Shown: positions 3,987-6,016 of the stretch, piece by piece
Position numbering within the stretch: position 1 is the first letter of the stretch
Layout: the number at the start of each line of letters is the position of its first letter
NCBI GenBank assembly: GCA_003228495.1
Contig: QIDY01000413.1
Location: 1 to 36,923 of the forward strand
Source: Nitrospirota bacterium
GTDB lineage: Bacteria; Nitrospirota; Nitrospiria; Nitrospirales; UBA8639
Direction of reading: 5' to 3'
Length of the DNA stretch: 36,923 nt
Made by a program: the position numbers and the translations under genes
Notes under the pieces: generated by a model
The model's database searches: none
Told to the model about the DNA's origin: nothing
Seen by the model: the letters and a program-made list of their open reading frames with translations, nothing else

Positions 3987-4418
3987 TCAGAATATACCAG
4001 CTTGCCGTTGAAGCCACCGGATATAGGCAATGACTTGAGAGACATCCTCTGGCACCATCCCTTCAATTTTCGGCATATTCCCAAACTTCCAATGATGGGC
4101 ACGGACACCTTGAGCTACGGCTCGTTGAAAGGCCATATCGGCATGATGATTCGGTTCATAAATTTTATGGACCAAGGGAGGCCCCTGGTTGGTGCCCTGC
4201 CCTTGAGGTCCGTGGCATTGAGAACAAAAGGTGTTGAATTTCGTTTCCCCTTCCTTTAATTCAGCCGGCAATGGTTTTTCAGTCGAAGCTAGAATGGTTG
4301 GCGATGATGCCGGCGAACTTTGTGCATTTGAACCATTCTCGGAGCATCCCAAAAAGAACATGCAACACAGACCGATCATGATCCTTTTGGTCGTATGCCA
4401 TATCAGCCGAGGTTTCAT
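3987..4418 (-). CDS. Class I cytochrome c lipoprotein
   Basis: From ATG at 4418: MKPRLIWHTTKRIMIGLCCMFFLGCSENG (lipobox-like LGC) then FCSQCHGPQGQGTNQGPPL (CxxCH) and GNMPKIEGMVPEDVSQVIAYIRWLQ. Confidence 0.85.
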   Translation of the reverse strand: MKPRLIWHTTKRIMIGLCCMFFLGCSENGSNAQSSPASSPTILASTEKPLPAELKEGETKFNTFCSQCHGPQGQGTNQGPPLVHKIYEPNHHADMAFQRAVAQGVRAHHWKFGNMPKIEGMVPEDVSQVIAYIRWLQRQAGIF

Positions 4419-5125
4419 ACCTTCTCTCCTTTTGAACCAGAGCCCAAGATTGCCGGATCTGAGATCTGAGCTTCCTGGAAACCCTCTTGACGAATGAGAC
4501 AACTATCACAATGTCCACAAGGACGATGATCAGCTCCAGGTTGATAACAACTATTCGTTAATTGAAAGGGCACATGGAGTTCCTGGCCTTTTTGAATAAT
4601 CTCGCGTTTTGTCATGAAAAGCAACGGGGCCACGATTTCAATGGGCGTTCCCTCTTGTCCTAAACGGGTTCCTTGTTTGGCAACTTCCATAAAGGCCTGA
4701 ATAAATTCCTGGCGGCAATCGGGATAGCCTGAATAATCTCGTATATTCGCCCCGAAGAAAATTTTTGTAGCATTCAAGACTTCCGCATAGGCTAAGGCTA
4801 AACTCAGAAAAATCATATTTCTGGCAGGCACATAGGTCACTGGAATCCCATGCTCCCGTTCCCTGGAAAGTCGATCGGTCGGCACGGGTATCTCATCCGT
4901 CAATGCAGACCCACCGAACATTCGCAAATCCAGTTGAAGAATCTTGTGATCTTGCACGCCCAGCCATGTGGCAATACCTTTGGCACATTCAATTTCATAT
5001 TGATGCCGCTGACCATAATCTATCGTCAAAAGATACAGATCAAATCCTTTCGCCTTGGCCATTGCCGCCATGACCGTGGAATCTAACCCGCCGCTCGCCA
5101 ATATGACCACAGGGATAGTTGCCAT
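4415..5125 (-). CDS. queC: 7-cyano-7-deazaguanine synthase
   Basis: MATIPVVILASGGLDSTVMAA (PP-loop SGGLDS), YVPARNMIFLSLALAYAE, C-terminal zinc cluster NSCYQPGADHRPCGHCDSCLIRQEGF. Start chosen at internal Met (ORF extends to 5188). Confidence 0.95.
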   Translation of the reverse strand: MATIPVVILASGGLDSTVMAAMAKAKGFDLYLLTIDYGQRHQYEIECAKGIATWLGVQDHKILQLDLRMFGGSALTDEIPVPTDRLSREREHGIPVTYVPARNMIFLSLALAYAEVLNATKIFFGANIRDYSGYPDCRQEFIQAFMEVAKQGTRLGQEGTPIEIVAPLLFMTKREIIQKGQELHVPFQLTNSCYQPGADHRPCGHCDSCLIRQEGFQEAQISDPAILGSGSKGEKV

Positions 5126-5301
5126 ATGTTCTTCTCTCTGTTCTACGACGTTTTCCGTATAGCGAACACCATCCACATAAGGAACCACTTGAACGAGATC
5201 TTATCCCTCAAGACATTCAGGATATCAGGAGATTATGGGAAAGGGAGGCCTACGCATCTTCACCATGAGCAGCTAGATACAGATGGGAAAACAGGCACTA
5301 A

Positions 5302-5482
5302 GGGTTCGCGAAACAATAACTTCCCAGAATTCGCGCCAAGATTTATGTCAGGTTGGGTCGATCTGAGGGAGCACAACCGGAGACGTCACATGGCCGACGT
5401 TGAGGATTGTGCAGGTGGAAATCGGCCCAAGCTGGCCTGAAGATTGGAATGAGAAAATGGGAAGTTATTGTTTCGCGAGCCC
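5302..5482. mobile_element. MITE-like element, 181 bp, 25-bp terminal inverted repeats, putative 3-bp TAA target duplication
   Basis: Left IR 5302-5326 gggttcgcgaaacaataacttccca; right IR 5458-5482 tgggaagttattgtttcgcgagccc (reverse complement gggctcgcgaaacaataacttccca): 24/25 match. TAA at 5299-5301 and TAA at 5483-5485. Confidence 0.85.
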
Positions 5483-5506
5483 TAAGGAAAGAATCATGAT
5501 GGGCGA

Positions 5507-6016
5507 TCACGAGCGTTGTTCCGATCGCTCAATTTTTTCCATTAATTCACGTTTGGATTGGCACTCGACACATAAGCGGGCAAAGGGCAACGCATAAAGA
5601 CGCTTTTCACTGATTTCTTCCCCACATTCCGCACACATCCCATACGTACCTTCGTTTAGACTATCTAAGGCATCGTCAATATGCTTTCGTTCCCGATTCC
5701 GCATTTCTTGGAGGGAAATCCCCATTTCACGTTCCAGATCCACCAAGGCCTGATCGCCGCTATCCATGGCGGCTTCTAGCCGGCGTTGCTGCTCTTCAGT
5801 GACAGATTGCCCCAATTGCTGTTTTATTTCTTGAATGAGGGCTTCACGTTTTACGAGCAGGATTTTCTTGAGTGATGCATGACGATTATCAGGCGCCTCT
5901 TTTTTAGAGGCCTCTTTTTTCTTGGTCGCTCTTGAAGAAGTTACCGCTGCAGTTGCGGCCTTTTTCACACGTGTCGTGGTAGTTTTTGCTTCCTTCTTCC
6001 CCGATCGTGCGGCCAT
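5507..6016 (-). CDS. DksA/TraR-family C4 zinc-finger protein with basic Lys/Ala/Thr-rich N-terminal tail
   Basis: LNEGTYGMCAECGEEISEKRLYALPFARLCVECQSKRE (CxxC...CxxC zinc finger); N-terminus MAARSGKKEAKTTTTRVKKAATAAVTSSRATKKKEASKKEA. Confidence 0.88.
   Translation of the reverse strand: MAARSGKKEAKTTTTRVKKAATAAVTSSRATKKKEASKKEAPDNRHASLKKILLVKREALIQEIKQQLGQSVTEEQQRRLEAAMDSGDQALVDLEREMGISLQEMRNRERKHIDDALDSLNEGTYGMCAECGEEISEKRLYALPFARLCVECQSKRELMEKIERSEQRS

Follow-up and report, generated by a model that had tools for sequence, protein, structure and literature searches.

Bacterial MITEs such as MITEAba12 and those of Coxiella are short, gene-less, multi-copy elements that are apparently mobilised in trans. 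Many bacterial MITEs depend on insertion sequences (IS) of the IS5 or IS630 families, some duplicating TA or TNA. To our knowledge, the helper families of MITEAba12 and the Coxiella MITEs are other than ISAzo13, and a literature search that reached few subscription papers found one paper naming both the ISAzo13 family and MITEs, but no published link between them. Here, we describe a gene-less MITE from a Nitrospirota genome that is in all likelihood mobilised in trans, with an ISAzo13-family DDE transposase as the most likely source of its mobility.

The window, by which we mean the whole 36,923-nucleotide stretch analysed, belongs to a fragmented genome of 2.66 Mb, 84% complete, in which it is contig C14. 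The MITE lies between two minus-strand genes, QueC (4415-5188) and a DksA/TraR-type zinc-finger gene (5507-6016; Pfam zf-dskA_traR, 1.6e-13). Its parts are as follows.

5299..5301, unstranded: left copy of the target duplication, TAA (sequence read and flank tally over copies).
5302..5326, plus strand: left terminal inverted repeat, GGGTTCGCGAAACAATAACTTCCCA (sequence, inverted-repeat search and end-pattern search).
5302..5482, unstranded: whole MITE, 181 bp, a single imperfect palindrome or hairpin with about 19 related genomic copies.
5327..5457, unstranded: core, palindromic and non-coding, with no relation to the ISAzo13 elements examined.
Within 5327..5457, read on the minus strand: core tip motif CCTCAACGTn...TACGCCTnCGG, given as the family consensus.
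5458..5482, minus strand: right terminal inverted repeat, 24/25 against the left (sequence and inverted-repeat search).
5483..5485, unstranded: right copy of the target duplication, TAA (sequence read and flank tally over copies).

The earlier note had proposed a non-autonomous transposable element mobilised in trans, to be checked by looking for further copies, empty sites and a full-length IS with the same termini. Its account of the locus was exact: an element of 181 bp, 25-bp inverted ends that match at 24 positions (the right-end letters TGGGAAGTTATTGTTTCGCGAGCCC at 5458-5482 have the complement GGGCTCGCGAAACAATAACTTCCCA, to be compared with GGGTTCGCGAAACAATAACTTCCCA), TAA on either side, 21 bp between the TAA flank and the end of the DksA/TraR-like gene at 5507, and no credible internal gene, the sole overlapping open reading frame (ORF; 5126-5440, 104 amino acids) having no Pfam match. 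An inverted-repeat search of 5000-5900 returned the MITE alone, with 29-nt arms that are 93% complementary, and the palindromy extends, imperfectly, beyond the 25-bp ends over all 181 bp. The length (below about 600 bp), the terminal inverted repeats and the lack of a transposase gene are those of a MITE, which the element, on all the evidence, almost certainly is.

About 19 related copies are present in the genome, at unrelated loci, and more occur in a few relatives, so the element is multi-copy, as the earlier note had anticipated. Twelve copies are 180-181 bp long (C14, C290, C131, C162, C22, C85, two on C7, C127, C34, C9 and C24), three are shorter (C8, 157 bp; C34, 137 bp; C42, 111 bp) and four have one altered end (C16, C200, C209 and C179), swapped after about 16 bp for ...CCAAGGGTTCACCCTGCGGGATGATCCAAGCTA. 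Identity among copies across the genome is 80-94%. The segment GGGTTCACCCTGCGGGATGATCCAAGCTA forms the altered end of the four copies (C16:16138, C200:1200, C209:2077 and C179:1724) and also occurs once outside a recognisable MITE, at C262:907. The 24-bp end pattern, allowing up to three mismatches, was found at 29 genomic sites, against none for a reversed control pattern; because of these counts, and of a fold stronger than in 200 of 200 shuffles, the element is far beyond chance. Among relatives, the MITE was also found in G005, G006, G012 and G014, and a genome of another genus in the same family (G035) carries the 157-bp form; most relatives are without it. The exact-end pattern, sought in 396 genomes of the phylum, a sample that left out most MITE-bearing relatives, was found in its own genome only. 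More diverged sequences, about 70% identical over the core, were seen in L030 (C254), L027 (C102), C239, C237, and C163 and C263 of G035. At least some of these end in other ISAzo13-like sequences (for example, GGGCCTGTCCATAAATAACTTTG in L030), which suggests that they may be older MITE lineages linked to other ISAzo13 subgroups.

The copies carry the mark of insertion. TWA borders both flanks of 18 of the 22 two-ended copies, and in 16 of these 18 the flanks are identical (eight TAA/TAA and eight TTA/TTA). The earlier note had read TAA as the flanking repeat; this stands for the window copy, but the target is TWA, that is TAA or TTA, and not TAA alone. At the window locus, the element is absent from readable same-genus relatives; the spacer has diverged there, leaving the exact target illegible, and empty sites were sought by joining the flanks of other copies and matching them against relatives. 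Uninterrupted sites with a single TWA, the empty sites that the earlier note had looked to, were found for three copies: those on C85 (in G001, GTAAGGTC), C8 (in G007, TGCTTAGTG) and C131 (in G012 and G014, GCCTAACC, with TAA apparently serving as the stop of the upstream gene). The joined flanks of the C24 copy also align continuously to relatives, but these have not kept the TWA. A repeat that is ancient and no longer mobile, and that owes its spread to recombination or segmental duplication rather than transposition, is contradicted by the unrelated flanks of the copies, by their 3-bp TWA duplications and by the precise empty sites; the one point in its favour is that copies just 80-94% identical record no very recent burst, and we find it scarcely credible.

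Placement relative to genes is consistent with transposition into TWA. In 7 of the 22 copies, the stop codon of a neighbouring ORF falls at the edge of the MITE, a count that rests on mechanically called ORFs and was compared with relatives for the C131 copy only. Because the target is TWA, TAA stops are natural landing sites, and insertion into them is survivable since the duplication restores the stop. Insertion into TAA stop codons with the gene left intact is thus a way in which such an element can spread harmlessly.

Both ends and target point to the ISAzo13 family. The genome holds a nearly complete ISAzo13-family IS at C30:372-2270 (L083; PF07592, E = 1.2e-116), flanked by CTAA and TTAG and with a transposase split into two ORFs, to be joined by a frame shift; a second ISAzo13 sequence, at C118, is broken. 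The ends of the C30 IS, GGGACTACGCAATAATAACTTCGT and GGGTTCGCGCATATTTAACTTCGT, show 7 and 8 mismatches to the MITE ends over 24 positions, so that this IS is not necessarily the helper. When 84,980 species were scanned with the C30 transposase, 80 loci from many phyla were obtained, and their ends and TWA flanks were read directly. We then ran a profile of fourteen MITE copies on 485,513 bp surrounding 85 ISAzo13 loci; L085, being a MITE, was left out. All 41 matches with E ≤ 1 fell on ISAzo13 ends and none elsewhere. The list of ISAzo13 ends had first been read with a MITE-modelled pattern; its independent anchor is the pairing of ends on either side of transposases, together with their TWA flanks. 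The majority ends of the MITE (GGGCTCGCGAAACAATAACTTCCC) and of ISAzo13 (GGGCCCGCGCAAAAATAACTTCAC) share 20 of 24 positions, and CTWA is the preferred target of both. TWA lies on both sides of 44 of the 48 ISAzo13 IS, the 3-bp duplication itself being seen for the MITE, and C precedes TWA at 84 of 91 ISAzo13 flanks and 29 of 44 MITE flanks. Taken together, the profile and the end agreement are strong evidence for the ISAzo13 family rather than for an individual helper.

Alternatively, the MITE could belong to a different IS family that makes TA-rich duplications of 2-4 bp, such as an IS5/IS1031-like or IS630-like one, and resemble ISAzo13 ends by convergence. This would be in keeping with the dependence of many bacterial MITEs on IS5 or IS630. 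It would also fit the result that searches of the assembled genome (up to three mismatches) and of the 396 phylum genomes, most MITE-bearing relatives lying outside this sample, turned up no IS carrying the exact ends of the MITE. Against it stand the 41 of 41 profile matches, the 20/24 agreement with a shared CTWA target, and the lack of any other IS in the assembled genome with ends within three mismatches; we judge it improbable. The full-length IS that the earlier note expected was found at the level of the family (similar ends, same target) but not, in these searches, as an element with identical ends. No ISAzo13 gene was found in the MITE-carrying relatives, several of whose genomes are incomplete. 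A simple internal deletion of a known ISAzo13 element is ruled out as the origin of the MITE, because its core is unlike any interior tested, giving short word matches only.

Dependence on ISAzo13 is therefore, on sequence grounds, very probable for this MITE; which member of the family acted, and that its enzyme acts on the MITE at all, we infer from ends and targets. An ISAzo13-family DDE transposase supplied in trans would recognise the inverted ends (GGGYTCGCGAAACAATAACTTCCC), excise or copy the MITE, and place it into CTWA(G) sites, where a cut staggered by 3 bp would duplicate TWA. The multiple copies, the empty sites with a single TWA and the ISAzo13-like ends all support the non-autonomous element, mobilised in trans, of the earlier note.

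Several features of the ISAzo13 elements were recorded alongside. The middle base of TWA differs between the two sides (TAA/TTA) in 18 of the 44 elements with TWA on both, versus 2 of 18 MITEs (Fisher P = 0.035), and may come either from chimeric assembly or from the way in which the elements insert. In 63 of the 68 elements examined from L083 and L088-L167, a run of seven to nine A immediately precedes the catalytic domain, some 40 nt upstream of the DDE domain. Joining the longest upstream frame to the catalytic frame takes a -1 shift in 54 of the 68 and a +1 shift in 12, and the frames are continuous in 2. This suggests that the transposase may be made by programmed frameshifting or slippage, of which our literature search found no published description for ISAzo13. 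The C30 transposase (L083) is 87-88% identical to those of L088 and L097, from MAGs labelled Gammaproteobacteria and Desulfobacterales, pointing to possible recent inter-phylum transfer or to binning errors.

The whole MITE folds as RNA into one hairpin of -100.8 kcal/mol (shuffles, -52.1 ± 4.2; z = -11.6, n = 200), and the DNA fold has z = -8.8. Over fourteen copies, pairing is retained in 94.8% of pair cells. Ten pairs show two-sided changes, whereas shuffles give 3.5 and slid controls 2-7; several of the double changes fall inside the MITE ends. The hairpin might thus be kept for its own sake, as a REP/BIME-like RNA or DNA with a structural or regulatory role, once spread by transposition and now, for example, protecting mRNA ends behind the DksA-like gene. 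The very stable fold, the excess of two-sided changes, the 7 of 22 copies adjoining a stop codon and a tip motif in common with an order-wide palindromic repeat (below) are in its favour. Yet the element is missing at the same loci in relatives and has no Rfam match, stop-codon placement also follows from the TWA target and selection against gene breakage, and compensatory changes are also given by arm correction, which is known to occur in imperfect palindromes during replication, or by the need of a transposase for two like ends, without any host function. We consider a hairpin kept for its own function unlikely, if less so than another IS family. For the MITE mobilised in trans, co-evolution or correction of the two arms probably accounts for the persistence of the long hairpin, and any function of the core is putative.

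A second palindromic repeat, intergenic and about 125 bp long (GGATGCTGAAAA...TTTTGAGCATCC), was seen at L232-L245, in G038, G041, G054, G058, G059 and others of the order; our literature search found no published description of it. Its tip, CCTCAACGTAC(CC..GG)GTACGCCTC, has up to 95 exact matches in one genome (control pattern, 0), and its stem variation is compensatory. The hairpin tip of the MITE (5370-5415 in the window, and in other copies) resembles this tip. When 17 MITE copies and 60 shuffles of each were scored with a tip profile, 10 of 17 copies matched (best 10.2 bits), compared with 5 of 1020 shuffles (best 2.9 bits). The hairpin core could, as a tentative and rather doubtful proposal, be a module of its own, shared with the order-wide repeat, that ISAzo13-type ends captured and that compensatory change has preserved because something cellular recognises its folded tip.

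This is most likely a new MITE family, otherwise an ordinary parasite of the known ISAzo13 family. For this sparsely studied family it is a concrete example of a non-autonomous partner whose ends, target and empty sites are described, and it makes ISAzo13 end recognition testable. With IS of the ISAzo13 family (PF07592, DDE_Tnp_ISAZ013), the MITE shares the 20/24 majority end, TWA flanks, the preceding C and a GGG start; unlike them, it has no transposase and a core unmatched to the interiors tested, and its ends prefer A to C at position 10 and close with TTCCC. The order-wide repeat GGATGCTGAAAA...TTTTGAGCATCC is likewise palindromic and intergenic and shares the tip motif CCTCAACGTA...TACGCCTC, but has unrelated ends, a length of about 125 bp and no established TWA duplication. 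In outline, MITEAba12 (PMC6382973) and the Coxiella MITEs (PMC5896051) are, like the present element, short, gene-less and multi-copy, with inverted ends, target duplication and apparent mobilisation in trans; they differ in living in other hosts, and the present MITE is one whole-element hairpin.
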